Shown here piece by piece: positions 27,632 through 37,576 of a DNA stretch of 37,704 nt; positions within the stretch are counted from its first letter, which is position 1, and every line of letters begins with the position of its first letter. Made by a program: the position numbers and the translations under genes. The stretch is taken from NCBI GenBank assembly GCA_017630455.1, contig JAGBVG010000014.1:1-37704 (forward strand), given 5' to 3'. The notes under the pieces are model-generated. The model was not told where the DNA came from. It worked only from the letters and a program-made list of their open reading frames with translations, and searched no databases. Origin of the DNA: Alistipes sp. (GTDB lineage: Bacteria > Bacteroidota > Bacteroidia > Bacteroidales > Rikenellaceae).

Positions 27632-28987
27632 ATGTCTATATACCATCACGATACCGACACTACAATCATCGCCCCTGCAACAGCCGCAGGTGGCGCAGTA
27701 GTCGTCGTTCGCATAAGTGGCCCAGATGCCATACCTATCGCCGATAAACTATTCCGTGGTCGCACCCAACTCGCAGATGCTAAGGGATATACGCTCCACT
27801 ATGGAGATATTGTATACCCTACTGGCGAGCCACTGGACGATGTTATCGTGGCACTCTTCCGCGCTCCACACTCCTATACCGAAGAGGATAGCGTGGAGAT
27901 CACGATTCACGGCTCTGAGTATATCACATCTGAACTTCTGCGACTGGCCATAGGCTACGGCGCGACGATGGCAACACCTGGCGAGTTTACACGCAGAGCA
28001 TTCCTCGCAGGAAAGATGGATCTCAGCCGTGCCGAGGCTGTTGCAGATATCATAGCATCTGACTCACAGTGGTCTCACAATGTGGCACGTACGCAGATGC
28101 GTGGCAAATACTCTGAGCGTCTGGGGGTAATGCGCCAGTCATTGTTAAAGCTCTGCTCGCTACTGGAGCTCGAGCTCGACTTCTCGGAGGAGGATGTGGA
28201 GTTTGCCAACCGCAGCGAACTCCGAGATATGCTAAAATCTATCAAATCGGAAGTCGAACAACTGAGATCATCTTTTGCTTTAGGTAATGTGCTTAAAAAC
28301 GGTGTTACCGTGGCGATTATCGGAGAACCTAATGTCGGCAAAAGCACGCTTCTCAACGCCCTTATAGAGGATGATCGCGCTATGGTTTCGGATATAGCTG
28401 GCACCACGCGCGATACCATTGAGGCCACGACAACTATCGACGGCATCCGCTATCGCTTTGTAGACACAGCAGGTCTACGCACCACGGAGGACAAGCTTGA
28501 GCAGATGGGTATCGACCGCACATATCGCGCTATTGAGAACGCTCAAATTATACTCCACATAGCCGCTGCCGACAACCCGTTTTTTGACAAAGTATCGGTA
28601 GATATGCAACAGAAATATATTCGGGTTATCAATAAGATAGATAAGCTTATATCAACCGACAATATAGATAGTGATACTACATTGATGATATCTGCTAAGG
28701 AGGGTATTGGCATCGATGCACTACGCACCGCACTGCGCGAATGCACCGACACAAGCCATATAAACAGCAGCTCGATTGTCGTCACAAATATGCGCCACTA
28801 CGCCGCATTGGAGCGTGCTGCGGAGAGTATCGGCATGGCATTAACAGCGATGGATAACGACCTCCCATCCGACTTACTGAGCGAAGATATCCGCCAAACC
28901 CTACACCACTTAGGCGAAATCACCGGCGACATCACCTCCGACGACATCCTCCACACCATCTTCTCCACATTCTGCATCGGAAAGTAA
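27632..28987 (+). CDS. mnmE: tRNA modification GTPase MnmE (TrmE)
   Basis: With MnmG makes the 5-carboxymethylaminomethyl group on wobble uridine of certain tRNAs. 451 residues. An N-terminal formyl-THF-binding domain ('IAPATAAGGAVVVVRISGP', 'PGEFTRRAFLAGKMDLSRAE') precedes the G domain: G1 GEPNVGKST (231-239), G3 DTAG (278-281), G4 NKID (334-337). The C-terminal catalytic motif FCIGK (447-451) is intact. The 3' end is the attachment site of the adjoining island: integration recreated the last codons, so the gene remains whole. Confidence 0.96.
   Translation: MSIYHHDTDTTIIAPATAAGGAVVVVRISGPDAIPIADKLFRGRTQLADAKGYTLHYGDIVYPTGEPLDDVIVALFRAPHSYTEEDSVEITIHGSEYITSELLRLAIGYGATMATPGEFTRRAFLAGKMDLSRAEAVADIIASDSQWSHNVARTQMRGKYSERLGVMRQSLLKLCSLLELELDFSEEDVEFANRSELRDMLKSIKSEVEQLRSSFALGNVLKNGVTVAIIGEPNVGKSTLLNALIEDDRAMVSDIAGTTRDTIEATTTIDGIRYRFVDTAGLRTTEDKLEQMGIDRTYRAIENAQIILHIAAADNPFFDKVSVDMQQKYIRVINKIDKLISTDNIDSDTTLMISAKEGIGIDALRTALRECTDTSHINSSSIVVTNMRHYAALERAAESIGMALTAMDNDLPSDLLSEDIRQTLHHLGEITGDITSDDILHTIFSTFCIGK
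28970..28987 (+). other. Predicted attL of the genomic island (3' end of mnmE)
   Basis: The last 18 bases of mnmE read TTCTGCATCGGAAAGTAA. From memory, the att core of Salmonella genomic island 1, also at the 3' end of this gene, is TTCTGTATTGGKAAGTAA, so about 15 of 18 positions agree. A tyrosine recombinase lies 1.2 kb downstream. No second copy is in the window, so attR must lie beyond 37704. Confidence 0.65.
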
Positions 28988-29028
28988 GTAGTTGATTACA
29001 TATAATTAAAATCAATCATAACTAATTG

Positions 29029-29057
29029 AAATAGCACTCTTTACGGGTGCTATTTTT
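29029..29057 (+). terminator. Terminator at the island's left edge
   Basis: AAATAGCAC pairs with GTGCTATTT (9 bp) around TCTTTACGG and ends in a T5 tract. It ends the mnmE transcript inside the island. Confidence 0.7.
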
Positions 29058-29070
29058 GTTTGCACAAGCA

Positions 29071-29200
29071 TCGTTGTTAATCGTTGCTAAGCCTTTTTAC
29101 GCCTGTTTTTGTACCTCCTGTGTACCTCGCAAACCGAAGTGCGAAATTTCATTGGTCAGATGACGGAGAAGTTGGTACGCATTGGTACGCTGTGGTACGC
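29071..29200. repeat. Three clusters of helically phased short repeats near attL
   Basis: TCGTTGYTAA occurs twice in exact tandem (29071-29090, 10-bp period). GTACCTC occurs at 29111 and 29122 (11-bp period). TKGGTACGC occurs three times at a 10-bp period (29171-29200), with its GGTAC core opposite in orientation to the GTACC pair. Spacing of one helical turn puts all copies of a cluster on one face of the DNA, as for arm-type integrase or excisionase sites. They lie upstream of the four-HTH gene and may also control it. Confidence 0.6.
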
Positions 29201-29237
29201 AATGAAACAGATTTGGCGAACTAAAAAGAGAATTAAA

Positions 29238-30131
29238 ATGGCTAGTAACATTGACATTCAGAAAAAATGCGAGTGGTGCGGTGTGATTTTTACCGCACAC
29301 AAGACCTCTACTGCCTACTGTTCTCACAGATGTGCAAACCTTGCATACAAGGAGAGAGTAAGGAAAAAGAGAGTACAAGAGTTTCAACTAAAATTTGATG
29401 AGGAAGCAAAACCTCATTCAGAAAAGGAGTTCTTAACACCAACCGAAGTGTCGGCATTTTTAGGTGTCGGGAGAACTTCAATCTACCGCTATATTAGGTA
29501 TGGCAAAATTAAGGCTGTTAGATTTGATGGTAAAACACTCATAAGGCGATCAGACATAGATAAGATGTTTGACTATTTCACTGTGAGTGAAAAGAACAAG
29601 CCAAAAGAAAAAGTCCCCATCACCGACTTCTACACCACTGCCGAGATTAAAGAGAAATATGGCGTTAAGGAATCGTGGATTTATGAGATTGCGAAGGAGC
29701 ATAATATCCCTCGCACATTTAATCGTGGCAGAACCTATTGGAGCAAGAAACATATCGACTCCTACTTTGCCAAGAAAGCTCCTGATGCGAGCATTACCGA
29801 ATGGTACAGCGTGGCGGAGTTACAGGAGAAGTTCGGTATGACGCTATCGGCAATCTACACCTTTGTATATAAGAATGTAATTCCCAAACGCAAGGAGGGC
29901 AAGATGGTCTATTACTCGAAAAAGCATTTCGATATAGCCAAAGGTATTGCCACGCCCGAAGAGCCCCAATACTACACCATACCCGAAGCGATGGAGAAAT
30001 ACGACCTCACACGCGACCAGCTCTACCACTATGTGAAGTATCACAACATCACTCGCATCAAGGTTGGCAAGTACACCAAGATTCTGCGCTCCGAGCTCGA
30101 CAAATTCTTTGAGCCACCGAAGATTGAGTAA
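29238..30131 (+). CDS. Zinc-finger protein with four tandem excisionase/MerR-like HTH domains
   Basis: 297 residues from ATG 29238; the longer frame from TTG 29109 runs through the repeat array and is unlikely. A zinc-ribbon-like knuckle has Cys11, Cys14, Cys28 and Cys32 ('CEWCG', 'YCSHRC'). Four HTH_17-like units follow: 66-111 ('LTPTEVSAFLGVGRTSIYRY'), 131-177 ('FYTTAEIKEKYGVKESWIYE'), 189-234 ('WYSVAELQEKFGMTLSAIYT') and 245-291 ('YYTIPEAMEKYDLTRDQLYH'). Each ends in the small wing typical of excisionases. It is next to the integrase gene (83 nt), so it is probably the recombination directionality factor or repressor of the island, binding several adjacent sites at once. Confidence 0.82.
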   Translation: MASNIDIQKKCEWCGVIFTAHKTSTAYCSHRCANLAYKERVRKKRVQEFQLKFDEEAKPHSEKEFLTPTEVSAFLGVGRTSIYRYIRYGKIKAVRFDGKTLIRRSDIDKMFDYFTVSEKNKPKEKVPITDFYTTAEIKEKYGVKESWIYEIAKEHNIPRTFNRGRTYWSKKHIDSYFAKKAPDASITEWYSVAELQEKFGMTLSAIYTFVYKNVIPKRKEGKMVYYSKKHFDIAKGIATPEEPQYYTIPEAMEKYDLTRDQLYHYVKYHNITRIKVGKYTKILRSELDKFFEPPKIE

Positions 30132-30139
30132 AGTTACTT

Positions 30140-30161
30140 GATGGTGATTGATACCACCATC
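30140..30161. other. Small hairpin between the HTH and integrase genes
   Basis: GATGGTG pairs with CACCATC (7 bp) around an 8-nt loop. There is no T tract, so it is either a weak attenuating structure or an operator dyad. Confidence 0.35.
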
Positions 30162-30214
30162 GGAACACCACTTTAATTTGCAACAAAAAATATAAACAAT
30201 TAATATATAAGACT

Positions 30215-31321
30215 ATGACACTAACTTGCACAAATGTAACCTTGCGTCAAAAAGCGTTACGCAATGACCGAATTTCACTCTATTTGGATTACTATCCAGC
30301 AATTCGTAATCCCTACACGATGAAGATGAGTCGCCGAGAGTTCCTCGGCATCTACCTCTATGCCAAGCCTCGCAACGAGCAGCAACGAATGTTCAATCAA
30401 GAGATGCTCAACAAAGCCGAAGCGATACGCTGTATTCGTGTTCAGTCGCTCATCAACGAGGAGTTCGGATTCCTCGACAAGAACAAACAGAAGGTCGATT
30501 TTCTCGCCTACTTCCGAGCAAAGGCACGCGAGCGATACGAAAAGTGGGATTGCGTTTGCAACCATTTCGAGAAGTTCTGTGGTGGAAAATGTACCTTCGG
30601 AGATATTACCGTTGAGTTGTGCGAAAAGTTTAGAGATTATCTATTGAAATGCAAACAGATACATCACCCCAACTCATATATCAGTCGAAATTCGGCAGCT
30701 GGATATTATTCCACTTTCCGCGCCCTGTTGAAGATTGCCTACAAGGAGAAGATGTTGCGCGAAAACCTCAATGACTTTCTTGAGAAAATCGAGTGGAAAG
30801 AGGTAAAAAAAGAGTATTTGACACTTGACGAGGTAAAGCAACTCGCCGCCACCCCTTGCCGTATTCCAGTGCTAAAACAAGCATCACTCTTCGCCTGTAT
30901 GACGGGACTTCGCATCAGCGATATACTCAAGTTGCAGTGGAGCGACTTTGAGATGGGACCCGACCAAGGCTACTATATCCGCATCTGCACCGAGAAAACC
31001 GAGACCGAGGCGACACTACCCATCAGCCACGAAGCATTGGAACTATGCGGCGACTGGGGCAAAGGATTGGTGTTCAAAGGACTCACCCGCGCAATGACAC
31101 ACCACCCACTAAAACAATGGATTTCCGAGGCTGGAATAAAGAAGAAGATAACTTTCCATTGCTTCAGGCACAGCTACGCGGTCATCCAAATCTCCTTAGG
31201 CACAGATATTTACACCGTATCGAAGATGCTTACGCATAAAAATGTAACCACCACTCAGATTTATGCCGACCTCGTTAACTCCAAGAAACGCGAAACTGCC
31301 AACAAGATTTCACTGAAATAA
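30215..31321 (+). CDS. int: Tyrosine recombinase (island integrase)
   Basis: 368 residues. The N-terminal arm-DNA-binding domain of the Bacteroidetes type ('NDRISLYLDYYPAIRNPYT', about 1-75) is followed by a SAM-like core-binding domain (about 95-190) and a catalytic domain with Arg233 (TGLRISD), Lys261 (TEKT), His315 and Arg318 (HCFRHSY), His341 (LTHKNV) and nucleophile Tyr350 (TTQIYADL): the complete set. It should integrate and excise the island at the mnmE 3' end. It follows the multi-HTH gene on the same strand and is convergent with the RES gene, with a strong shared terminator. Confidence 0.95.
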   Translation: MTLTCTNVTLRQKALRNDRISLYLDYYPAIRNPYTMKMSRREFLGIYLYAKPRNEQQRMFNQEMLNKAEAIRCIRVQSLINEEFGFLDKNKQKVDFLAYFRAKARERYEKWDCVCNHFEKFCGGKCTFGDITVELCEKFRDYLLKCKQIHHPNSYISRNSAAGYYSTFRALLKIAYKEKMLRENLNDFLEKIEWKEVKKEYLTLDEVKQLAATPCRIPVLKQASLFACMTGLRISDILKLQWSDFEMGPDQGYYIRICTEKTETEATLPISHEALELCGDWGKGLVFKGLTRAMTHHPLKQWISEAGIKKKITFHCFRHSYAVIQISLGTDIYTVSKMLTHKNVTTTQIYADLVNSKKRETANKISLK

Positions 31322-33536: not shown

Positions 33537-34037
33537 TTAAAAGTCATCCTCTTTGTTCTTGGCATTAAGGTAGAACTCATATAATTTCTTACCAATTTTA
33601 TCTTTCTTGAATTCTCTTTCGTGTTCTATAGGGATTGTTGTTAATCGTACTTTTATAATTCCATCCTTTAATAGTTCAAACTGTTCTGGAGATACTTCAA
33701 ATTGTGCTGTAGATATAATAGATGTAACAGGGATAACCATATTTCCAGAAACTATCCCTGCAGACTCAGTGCCATTGTCAATTAACTCTCCAGAGAACCT
33801 AAGAACATCGCCATTAGCAGTTCTAATCATCATTGTGGATTCCTTCAAAAATTTCATTCTATCCGATTGAACTGTCGCAATGATGTAGAACTTTTCATTT
33901 TGTTTTGCAACACTATATTTCATACTACAACCTTCTGCCGCTAACGCTTTATATGTATAACTTACAGTTTGAGCTGTAACATCATTTATAGCTATAGACA
34001 TAGCACCGATTATAACAAATAGTATCAACCTTTTCAT
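33537..34037 (-). CDS. Secreted protein of unknown function
   Basis: 166 residues with a signal peptide (MKRLILFVIIGAMSIAINDV, then TAQ). The mature part is beta-rich ('YKALAAEGCSMKYSVAKQNE', 'FYIIATVQSDRMKFLKES', 'MMIRTANGDVLRFSG', 'GNMVIPVTSIISTAQFEVSP') and ends in a lysine-rich helix. It has a single cysteine. I do not recognise a family. It may be a periplasmic sensor or a surface protein; nothing around it fixes its role. It is on the same strand as the genes at 34139 and 33466, with gaps of about 100 and 70 nt, so the three could be expressed separately. Confidence 0.75.
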   Translation of the reverse strand: MKRLILFVIIGAMSIAINDVTAQTVSYTYKALAAEGCSMKYSVAKQNEKFYIIATVQSDRMKFLKESTMMIRTANGDVLRFSGELIDNGTESAGIVSGNMVIPVTSIISTAQFEVSPEQFELLKDGIIKVRLTTIPIEHEREFKKDKIGKKLYEFYLNAKNKEDDF

Positions 34038-34138: not shown

Positions 34139-34600
34139 TTACAATTCCAACATTCTGCAAGGTTTAGAGCTATGTGCTATGCTATAATGTAATGATGAGA
34201 GTTGGCTTGAGTTGTCGAATGGGGCGAAGACAACTTCCGATGCAAGATCGGCAGTGAGCCAATTACGGATTTGAGAGTTGGAGAATGAGGGGCGTGAGTG
34301 GTCTCGAAACGATACGAACAACACCCTATTGCTATCATAAGCAGCCTGCAAGTGCGTTGGGATTTTGCGGTATAGTGAACGCCCCAATGCGACCACGACA
34401 GAACAGCCATTAGCGAGGAGTATATCGAGTACAGCTCGCTCGATTGGAGAGTGAAAGCCGCTAATTACAATCTTATCAGTTTGAGCAATTTCGTGTGCCC
34501 ATCGCTTAGCGAGGTCAAGAGCCTCAGGCGGTGCTGTACGGGATGCGAAGAAGGCAACCAAATATCTATCCAACAACTCTTTGTTACCAGATAAGTCCAT
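34139..34600 (-). CDS. Minimal DprA/SLOG-like Rossmann protein
   Basis: 153 residues. 'FFASRTAPPEALDLAKRWAH' followed by 'KIVISGFHSPIERAVLDILL' and 'ANGCSVVVALGRSLYRKIPT' follow the DprA/Smf core pattern (first strand, helix, VVSG loop, helix, GG-type strand, GLD-YP segment). The N-terminal SAM/HhH and C-terminal winged-helix domains of full DprA are absent. DprA itself loads RecA on ssDNA; related SLOG proteins bind nucleotides or nucleotide signals. The ATG directly follows a T6 tract that ends a structured leader, so its expression may depend on terminator read-through. The family call is by pattern, not by search. Confidence 0.68.
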   Translation of the reverse strand: MDLSGNKELLDRYLVAFFASRTAPPEALDLAKRWAHEIAQTDKIVISGFHSPIERAVLDILLANGCSVVVALGRSLYRKIPTHLQAAYDSNRVLFVSFRDHSRPSFSNSQIRNWLTADLASEVVFAPFDNSSQLSSLHYSIAHSSKPCRMLEL

Positions 34601-34857
34601 AAAAAAGCGCAGGCCACTGCATTAACTTATCCCGTACCGAGGTCTTGGCTACCTGTAACACGAACAAGCAACACAGATAGCCCACGCAGGATGATATATA
34701 AGCACACACTGAGCCAATGTCAGTGGTGAATATATACACCTATCGTGGACATCTGATTGCGTATCTTCGTGTTACACAAACGGCCAAGTTTCGGTACGAA
34801 AGATTACAACAATAAATGTCTACTAATATGTATTGGCTTAGCGCTTAAAGTCGTAAG
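34601..34857 (-). ncRNA. Candidate structured RNA/leader upstream of the DprA-like gene
   Basis: On the minus strand a promoter box (34864-34871) would start an RNA near 34857. It opens with a hairpin (GGCTTA/TAAGCC, 34835-34859). Then comes a nested stem of about 166 nt: CGTACCGA 34633-34640 with TCGGTACG 34791-34798; CTTGGC 34644-34649 with GCCAAG 34783-34788; GTAACACGAA 34655-34664 with TTCGTGTTAC 34766-34775; CAGAT/ATCTG; CCACG/CGTGG; TATATA/TATATA; CACTGA/TCAGTG (34707-34725) at the tip. It ends in a short GC-rich hairpin (GCAG/CTGC) and T6 directly before the ATG at 34600. No ORF lies inside. It could be an attenuator leader, a small RNA, or a DNA hairpin such as a replication or transfer site. 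Confidence 0.6.
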
Positions 34858-34863
34858 CCGTAA

Positions 34864-34871
34864 CAAAGATA
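34864..34871 (-). promoter_or_regulatory. Promoter (-7 box) of the structured RNA/DprA-like gene
   Basis: TATCTTTG on the minus strand is an exact TAnnTTTG box. A TTTG lies upstream but at 13 nt, too close for the usual -33 spacing. The predicted start is about 34857. Confidence 0.5.
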
Positions 34872-35842: not shown

Positions 35843-36475
35843 TTAATTGTATAAAGCGTTCAGCCAGTTGACAAATGCCTGACAAATAGGAGGTGTTGTA
35901 GTTAGATATTTCTTAGTTACAGCAGAGCCCATAGGTGTTCCAGGATCTTCTTGCCACGCCAACCAAGTGTGTATCTTCGCCTTTGAATGATGTATTGGTT
36001 TATACTTATTCAAACCTCTTGCCTCTATGCTGTCTAAAACATTTTCAACTTCTGGCAACAACTTGTCGTCATCAGGAATTAAGAATGCTGCAAAATCCTC
36101 TAACATTCCATTATTGTTATTGTTCGGCATAATCCACACCCCGACTTTTATATCATCAACATTATCGGGGATAATAATGGCACCTCCCTGAGGACAATCA
36201 TCAGGAATACTGCTATACAAATTAGAGTTTATGAGTATCTGACGCATTTGCATCCATCTCGCTTGTATGTCAATATCTGCGTCCATAACTATTCCAATGG
36301 TCTTAATCTCACCAGAGCCTTTAAGTCTGACGGGGAGTCCATTCAATAGATTCGTAACACCTTTGCAGTCCTCTATTTTGAAAGTTTCGGAGACATCAAA
36401 CGCAGCACAGATGTTACAGATAAGATGAAAATCATCATTACCTTCAACCAATAATGTTTGAGTTATATTATCCAT
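35843..36475 (-). CDS. TOPRIM-fold protein (DUF3226-like), partner of the ATPase
   Basis: 210 residues. 'LLVEGNDDFHLI' carries the TOPRIM glutamate (Glu11), and 'GIVMDADIDI' the DxD pair (Asp65, Asp67), the metal-binding motif of TOPRIM nucleases and of DUF3226/DUF4435 proteins. 'GVWIMPNNNNNGMLEDF' follows as in DUF3226. It starts 3 nt after the ATPase stop, so the pair is surely one operon. In PARIS the AAA15 ATPase AriA holds a TOPRIM nuclease AriB (DUF4435) until phage infection, and OLD nucleases fuse the two functions. By analogy this is the likely effector nuclease; which nucleic acid it cuts cannot be told from sequence. Confidence 0.85.
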   Translation of the reverse strand: MDNITQTLLVEGNDDFHLICNICAAFDVSETFKIEDCKGVTNLLNGLPVRLKGSGEIKTIGIVMDADIDIQARWMQMRQILINSNLYSSIPDDCPQGGAIIIPDNVDDIKVGVWIMPNNNNNGMLEDFAAFLIPDDDKLLPEVENVLDSIEARGLNKYKPIHHSKAKIHTWLAWQEDPGTPMGSAVTKKYLTTTPPICQAFVNWLNALYN

Positions 36476-36478
36476 AAA

Positions 36479-37576
36479 CTATCTGATTTCAATGTTTTGA
36501 GCCGCAACTATCTTTAATTCTTCCAAATTATATTCGGTGAAAGTTATTGCACTCTGTTTGTTTTCAAGTCTTATATAGCGTCCCTCTTCGACATTACTCT
36601 CCTCCTTTAAGGCGTAACCGAAACTACTGATACAATCAGAGCTATGCGTTGTTGCAAATATCTGCACATTAAGTTTAATTGCCAATTTGAAAATTACAGA
36701 CCACAATTGTTTCTGCACGGTATAATGCAATCCGTTATCAATCTCATCTATCAATAGGCACCCATTTTCGCAATTAACCAATGCTAGGATAATTGACAAA
36801 ATGTGATTTATTCCATCACCCATACTTCTTAATGGCAATCTCTTGCTAACACCTTTTACCTTTACTACTGGATATCGTCCAATACGGGGTGATTCCTCAA
36901 GGAACGCCAAACTTTCGATATTCGGCTCTATAATTCTCAAAGCATCAATTACATATTCCTCTTTCTCTGTCAGTGTTACATTGTCCCAGAGCCTTCCGAT
37001 ATATAGATTCCCAAATGTTTCAGGATTAACCCTGATTACAGATGCTAAATCTGTTTTCTTAGTCCTACCTAATCTTATAGTGTCAAGGCGACGCTCTAAT
37101 GGCACTATAGCTTTGTTCTTACCTTTTCTTATAATTTCCAATGCAAGATGTGCATCTCCAGTAGCAATATCATCCCTTGAGTCAAAAACTATAGCTTTTC
37201 GTACTATATTCCCATCTTCCTCAGTTTCTTGCTCTGTGTAATAAACATAACGCAATGACAGAACATCATCATTATCAGAGATCTCAATGATATTATCTTC
37301 TGTCACATTAGTATTTCTATTTGTGAATAAAGAAGATATTGCTTCGATATTGGGTTTAAGGTATTCTGTTGTATCCTTGCTACTATATTTAGGTAACTCC
37401 CCTCTCTCTTCTACGATATAGAATAATTCAGAATCATCAACATATACACCAATAGCCTCCAACAACGATGACTTTCCGACATTATTCTTGCCTGAAATCA
37501 AGTTAATTCGAGACAACTTAGGGATATTTAACCCTGACAAGTTTTTAAAGTTCCGAATCTTAAGAGACTGTATCAT
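36479..37576 (-). CDS. SMC/OLD-like AAA ATPase (AAA15/AAA21 type)
   Basis: 365 residues. Begins 'MIQSLKIRNFKNLSGLNIPK'. Walker A is in 'SGKNNVGKSSLLE' (Gly29-Ser37). A long insertion (about 45-245) replaces a coiled coil. 'RSMGDGINHIL' (250-260) is the signature-like motif, Walker B is LLIDEID (274-280, Asp277/Glu278), and the switch histidine is in 'FATTHSSDC' (His311). The layout is that of RecF/OLD-type ABC ATPases used as sensors in anti-phage systems. It is the first gene of a two-gene operon with the TOPRIM protein. A TATATTTG box lies 34 nt before the ATG. Role: likely infection sensor that controls the TOPRIM partner. Confidence 0.9.
   Translation of the reverse strand: MIQSLKIRNFKNLSGLNIPKLSRINLISGKNNVGKSSLLEAIGVYVDDSELFYIVEERGELPKYSSKDTTEYLKPNIEAISSLFTNRNTNVTEDNIIEISDNDDVLSLRYVYYTEQETEEDGNIVRKAIVFDSRDDIATGDAHLALEIIRKGKNKAIVPLERRLDTIRLGRTKKTDLASVIRVNPETFGNLYIGRLWDNVTLTEKEEYVIDALRIIEPNIESLAFLEESPRIGRYPVVKVKGVSKRLPLRSMGDGINHILSIILALVNCENGCLLIDEIDNGLHYTVQKQLWSVIFKLAIKLNVQIFATTHSSDCISSFGYALKEESNVEEGRYIRLENKQSAITFTEYNLEELKIVAAQNIEIR

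Follow-up and report, generated by a model that had tools for sequence, protein, structure and literature searches.

Attenuators built on the exchange of four strands are textbook devices. In the attenuators of the trp and his operons, the leader strands pair in the order 1:2, 2:3, and 3:4; the 3:4 stem is followed by a U tract, and 2:3 is the antiterminator. Riboswitches with intrinsic-terminator platforms feature a structured 5′ leader and a mutually exclusive terminator. The leader described here, an RNA of 260 bases that precedes a DprA-like gene, lies on the minus strand of a 37,704-nt stretch of Alistipes sp. DNA (the window) and, as read from its sequence, looks like a conserved folding switch. 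With a probability of roughly 0.74, it would be the 5′ leader of this gene, would work as a transcription attenuator in which four strands, S1 to S4, exchange partners, and would belong to a wider family of leaders found in Bacteroidota ahead of unrelated accessory genes. Its strand order, U tract, and gene start have the layout of a transcription attenuator: 1:2, 2:3, and 3:4 with a U tract after 3:4 match the trp and his type, and 2:3 would be the antiterminator. Unlike the trp and his attenuators, the leader has no conserved leader peptide, carries a P1 stem and a conserved core around the 2:3 rod, and belongs to a family standing before unrelated accessory genes rather than biosynthesis operons. 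A leader peptide overlapping strand 1, as in the trp/his subtype, was rejected since an ATG before P1 is not conserved (present in only 27/48 and 36/74 leaders); the ATGs in the leader of the window are confined to S2 and S4. The likeness to riboswitches lies in the structured 5′ leader, the core beside a covarying P1, and the mutually exclusive terminator. In contrast to riboswitches, blocking P1 in silico rarely shifts the preferred fold, and the family, which is not known to bind a ligand, precedes a mixture of secreted, defence-like, and uncharacterised genes.

Bacteroidales-1 (RF01693) of Rfam is likewise a structured Bacteroidales RNA of similar size, but it has no match over the cut-off in the genome of the window. 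At gathering score, no family of Rfam 15 matches the RNA in the window or in sets of 12 and 19 relatives, and none matches it in 18 hold-out loci at E ≤0.5; at E ≤10, the leader stretch yields two chance-level matches of 13–15 bits. No published description of this RNA was found in the literature searched, including sections of PMC2864571 and PMC8040213. The latter reports, in the sections covered, 3161 candidate RNAs, and an unnamed earlier prediction of this RNA, for instance among these candidates, is possible. The kind of device is already known; as far as tested, the family, its spread over the phylum, the lack of a leader peptide, and the mixed gene set are new.

Architecture, fold, and covariation of the leader

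All parts of the leader are read on the minus strand. The sequence opens with a promoter −7-like box, TATCTTTG (34864..34871); TAnnTTTG, which we take to be the Bacteroidota promoter motif, occurs at positions −160 to −35 before 57/73 wider relatives, with 6.1 expected from shuffles. The 5′ hairpin H1 (34835..34859) is present in the minimum free energy (MFE) fold and is followed by a conserved single strand, UACAUAU (34826..34832), whose first A, two inner A, and the T between them are invariant or at least 90% conserved in the alignment of leaders. S1 (34802..34825) is a potential partner of S2, as judged by the swap test and the growing-chain fold described below. The 5′ strand of P1 (34791..34801) forms the base of the rod with covarying pairs, and the 5′ side of the conserved core, AAACUUGGCCGUUU (34778..34791), contains the helix P1b and is defined by alignments and covariation. 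S2 (34739..34762), the ascending strand of the rod, is identified by covariation, duplex energies, and swap tests; S3 (34662..34687), the descending strand with the sequence GCGUGGGC...GCUUGUUC, can pair with either S2 or S4 as judged by duplex energies and swap tests. The 3′ side of the core, CAGGUAGCCAAGACCU (34640..34655; alignments and covariation), and the 3′ strand of the rod base, P1′ (34632..34640; helix listing and covariation), are followed by the trailer S4 (34607..34633), the potential partner of S3 in a terminator stem, and by a U6 tract (34601..34606) that abuts the ATG of the DprA-like gene (34139..34600). At least five T stand directly ahead of the ATG in 76/78 DprA-like locus entries (duplicates included), and a run of at least five T follows P1′ in 66/74 wider relatives.

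The minus strand of 34601–34871 has an MFE of −103.9 kcal/mol compared with a shuffle average of −68.9 kcal/mol (z −7.4, 0/200 shuffles as good). Folding of the plus strand is no worse (z −9.0), and the fold alone is therefore not informative on the strand. The original prediction had named a large nested stem, a promoter box, a 5′ hairpin, and a T6 run directly before the ATG, all of which are present. Its three longest helices are likewise seen—an 8 bp helix (34633–34640 with 34791–34798), a 6 bp helix, CUUGGC/GCCAAG, and between 34654–34664 and 34766–34776 a third that is 11 bp long rather than the 10 bp claimed—with the 6 bp helix located between the other two. None of the listed ORFs of at least 60 aa overlaps the leader stretch, and a tRNA search of the window with ARAGORN was negative.

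Homologues of the DprA-like protein occur at 28 loci in named metagenome genomes, of which 19 carry an Alistipes or Rikenellaceae label, and in 35/101 genomes searched (its own and 100 relatives). A leader with T6–7 and then ATG is found at loci with sufficient upstream sequence down to approximately 30% protein identity (L077); it was not seen in L073 and L076. The leader is conserved among homologues, and alignment A1 consists of 48 leaders with pairwise identities of 43–98% (median 65%). Of its 44 predicted pairs, 24 carry compensatory changes. G–U cells outnumber A–C cells by 291 to 25, which indicates selection on the minus-strand RNA, although the count is biased toward this result by a structure predicted with G–U allowed. 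In 87 aligned relatives, compensatory changes occur at 44/45 pairs, 91.7% of cells are paired, and the covariation score is 0.66 compared with 0.21 in shuffled and ≤0.11 in slid alignments, the alignment itself having been fitted to the structure. P1 covaries and lies next to the conserved core, an arrangement looked for in riboswitches. The covariation check on homologous leaders proposed with the original prediction thus came out positive, here and in the swap tests (z −6.3 to −26.4), and the claim of a large structured attenuator-type RNA before the DprA-like gene is borne out by the strong covariation and the mispair bias toward the minus strand. Compared with L014, the leaders of L027 and L072 have a mosaic look by eye: The 5′ part is that of another leader type and the rest differs, as if recombination passes through the leader.

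Pairing exchange and the proposed switch

The trailer downstream of P1′ is complementary to the descending strand of the rod, which was noticed from divergent members. The S3:S4 duplex amounts to −30.8 kcal/mol in the window and to −28.5 kcal/mol on average in the 48 leaders, compared with −14.9 kcal/mol with shuffled trailers. The local GCAG/CUGC hairpin ahead of T6, part of the original prediction, is only 4 bp long and not the main terminator; the trailer instead has its conserved complement in the 3′ strand of the rod. The swap test compares the pairing of every strand with its cognate partner to its pairing with those of other loci in 5000 permutations, using 48 close leaders (A1), 70 of 75 wider RNAs (wide), and 22 of 23 hold-out RNAs. 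The z scores for A1, wide, and hold-out are −6.7, −10.7, and −6.3 for S1:S2; −17.0, −26.4, and −10.8 for S2:S3; and −8.6, −16.6, and −8.7 for S3:S4, with 0/5000 permutations as low in every case. The control pairings S1:S3 (−2.3, −0.2, and +0.3), S2:S4 (+1.0, +0.5, and −1.1), and P1:S4 (−0.5, −0.6, and −1.1) stay far closer to zero; weak signals, which speak against the attenuator reading, appear in the wide set for S1:S4 (−2.5; +2.1 in A1) and P1:S3 (−2.5), as well as in A1 for S1:S3. Sequence relatedness may inflate these z scores, and the controls have equal relatedness. The hold-out loci were found by a model spanning S2 and S3, not S1, and of S4 only its first 6 nt; S1 and the remainder of S4 lie outside the models behind both the wider and the hold-out sets, and the results for 1:2 and 3:4 are therefore nearly independent of discovery. 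Removal of the G284 and G000 rows from the hold-out set (n = 19) leaves −5.2, −8.2, and −7.2 for S1:S2, S2:S3, and S3:S4, with controls of −0.7, −1.6, and −1.4. The comparison of sequences thereby shows that S1:S2, S2:S3, and S3:S4 are each kept by matching change, with 1:2 plus 3:4 excluding 2:3. The possibility that the trailer pairs with the 5′ H2 region was rejected (z +2.4).

Upon movement of the RNA polymerase along the gene, S1:S2 would form first. The emerging S3 would then displace S1 from S2 and, together with P1 and the conserved core, build the rod, which as antiterminator would allow for transcription of the gene. If this exchange is slow or blocked, S3 would stay free and fold with S4 into a long terminator stem before U6, so that transcription would stop at the start codon. 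The balance may be set by a factor or ligand on the core AAACUUSGC / GGGCAGSSAAGGCC or by the speed of transcription; alternatively, the trigger could be a factor that stabilises the S1:S2 pairing or leaves S3 available. Growing-chain folding of the leader of the window has 1:2 at 116 nt and 2:3 in its place at 196 nt; at no point in these folds does S3:S4 become the minimum. The equilibrium fold is the rod in 45/48 (A1), 70/70 (wide), and 17/18 (hold-out) RNAs. The terminator is ahead in 3/48, 0/70, and 1/18 of the free RNAs and in only 4, 3, and 2 with the P1 strand blocked, as judged by equilibrium folding, and terminator-forced folds of the window are 15–22 kcal/mol worse. Since equilibrium favours the rod, the switch would have to be kinetic, during transcription, or driven by a factor. 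P1 as a simple equilibrium lever was rejected because blocking it rarely alters the preferred fold.

Distribution of the RNA family and the genes behind it

The family was followed with R1, a covariance model of the rod, and R2, a broader model. R1 has matches in 130/180 genomes of the genus of the window (E ≤0.001) and in 51/295 genomes of the order (E ≤0.01), the latter covering 36/184 genera. R2 matches 21/395 genomes of the phylum: the genome of the window, 3 from its order, 9 from the remaining orders within the class, and 8 from beyond the class. These counts are lower bounds as the stricter scan filters drop weak matches, and a single genome holds up to 10 model matches. Divergent members retain the core AAACUUSGC / GGGCANNSSAAGGCC, which many members outside the order replace by AAACUGGNA / GGNAUNCCAGUNCC; their apical strand resembles GCGUGGGC, and most have the U tract. 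A second member in the genome of the window (L219, 2606–2763; G000:C68:59105–59262) precedes an unrelated 184-aa ORF. Two short-class leaders of L120 (1492–1613 and 15180–15301), separated by 13.7 kb, each precede a paralogous lipoprotein-like gene, and L195 carries an rteR sRNA (2226–2306; RF04181, 93.5 bits) near its hold-out leader. Regarding carriage by phages, an exact-pattern scan gave 0 contigs and a looser scan 7, of which R2 recognised 0 at E ≤0.01; a close relative of the DprA-like protein occurs in a viral contig (L030).

Within the genus, the RNA and the DprA-like gene are closely linked. The gene lies ≤90 nt from 94/106 strong RNA hits (83 bits or more), and a strong hit stands directly upstream at 94/103 DprA-like places. 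Among the 9 remaining places are weaker matches at G163:C34 (72 bits) and G115:C5 (57.5 bits), a match cut by the contig end (G122:C36), and one beside a broken gene (G042:C6), while no leader RNA was found at G004:C23 and G179:C151. The downstream genes of distant relatives across Bacteroidota are unrelated and often secreted. By script, a co-directional ORF of at least 80 aa lies within 450 nt of 69/75 wider members, of which 4 are judged spurious (L118, L121, L124, and L128); it is absent in 6/75 (L123, L142, L144, L148, L178, and L185), of which L148 has a 72-aa ORF. Of the 69 ORFs, 50 begin 60–150 nt past P1′ and 45 have a hydrophobic N-terminus. Pfam searches on 63 of the 69 proteins return 46 families, the commonest—BspA-type repeats—being found in only 5 proteins. 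In the loci compared, no conserved neighbour downstream of the DprA-like genes was seen by eye. With mixed genes and no fixed downstream neighbour of the DprA-like gene seen, the leader seems to serve as a common control device rather than as half of a dedicated RNA–protein system.

The attenuator reading competes with three others. The RNA could be a free-standing functional small RNA with S3:S4 as its own terminator, the downstream gene being read by leak-through. This is unlikely: Whereas the bracketing promoter-like box and U tract, the approximately 10/75 wider relatives that have no convincing co-directional gene, and the tandem copies that L125 and L074 have ahead of one gene all agree with it, the conserved S1:S2 pairing and the co-directional ORFs of at least 80 aa within 450 nt in 69/75 wider cases (4 judged spurious) are left unexplained. 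The terminated product may be a free small RNA, as may the relatives that lack a co-directional gene. The tandem copies precede a single DprA-like gene with spacings of approximately 170–340 nt (three in L125, 3118–3923; two in L074, 3516–4207).

An RNA–protein pair, in which the DprA-like protein is bound by the RNA in the manner of an RNA antitoxin or guide, is less probable still and would leave the four-strand exchange unexplained. It draws on the linkage in the genus (94/103), on at least 3 of the other 9 places with a weaker, cut, or differently spaced RNA, on the likeness of the protein to PsyrA, and on a terminator between RNA and gene, as type III toxin–antitoxin loci also have. Against it, the same RNA superfamily stands before unrelated genes, and the leader lacks tandem 30–40 nt repeats. 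A type III toxin–antitoxin system proper was rejected since there are no tandem short RNA repeats and the protein is DprA-like, not a ToxN-like endonuclease. The suggestion in the original prediction that such a pair would form a new type of defence system is not supported, given the many unrelated genes behind the superfamily and the finding of no conserved gene next to the DprA-like gene in the loci compared. The patchy, multi-copy occurrence at varied sites and the folding of both strands, with the plus strand folding better, would fit a DNA-level element, such as a recombination site or the end of a mobile cassette, with folding in the form of single-stranded DNA. Such an element is highly improbable, and a DNA hairpin was rejected as the main reading, as the 291 G–U against 25 A–C cells point to the minus strand (with a structure derived allowing G–U and hence leaning this way) and the promoter-like box and U tract are conserved.

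The transcription attenuator remains the preferred reading, and it can be extended only tentatively, at somewhat less than even odds, to an undescribed, phylum-wide class of sensor leaders in which one conserved core is read by a common signal or transcription factor before dozens of unrelated accessory genes. If true, Bacteroidota would share an RNA-controlled regulon of accessory genes comprising surface proteins, small regulators, and DprA-like defence candidates. Members of the family precede unrelated genes throughout a phylum that makes up a major part of the gut flora, and identifying what the core senses would reveal the control signal of many surface and defence-like genes at once.

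The DprA-like protein and its surroundings

The DprA-like protein consists of 153 aa and is of the Rossmann type, with an AlphaFold2 pLDDT of 95.4. Its match to Pfam PF02481 is borderline (29.9 bits compared with a cut-off of 29.6), its best likeness in PADLOC is PsyrA (E 1.7e-11), and ShosA in the PDB (9vzo) is matched at E 0.026. It scores 17.4 bits with the DprA equivalog TIGR00732, far below the cut-off of 191.15. At the position of SGLAKGID in DprA (3uqz), it carries SGFHSP(I/L)E. With PsyrA and ShosA, which are DprA-like antitoxins, it has the DprA-type Rossmann domain in common; it differs from them by its length of only 153 aa and by this motif, and no conserved downstream gene was seen beside it by eye in the loci compared. 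From its family, we infer at most a role in sensing nucleotides or single-strand DNA.

The gene downstream of it in the window (33537–34037) matches PADLOC PDC-M59C at E 1.5e-70, and two adjoining genes at 35843–37576 match the PADLOC candidate defence pair PDC-M38A/PDC-M38B (ATPase and DUF3226). At 27632–31321, mnmE stands in a row with a protein matching HTH_17 four times and a tyrosine integrase; the island appears to adjoin mnmE, with L008, L009, and L011 similar by eye. In two further loci, the DprA-like gene is followed by an HsdR-like gene (L134) and by a DndC-like gene (L075), both named by eye from sequence.
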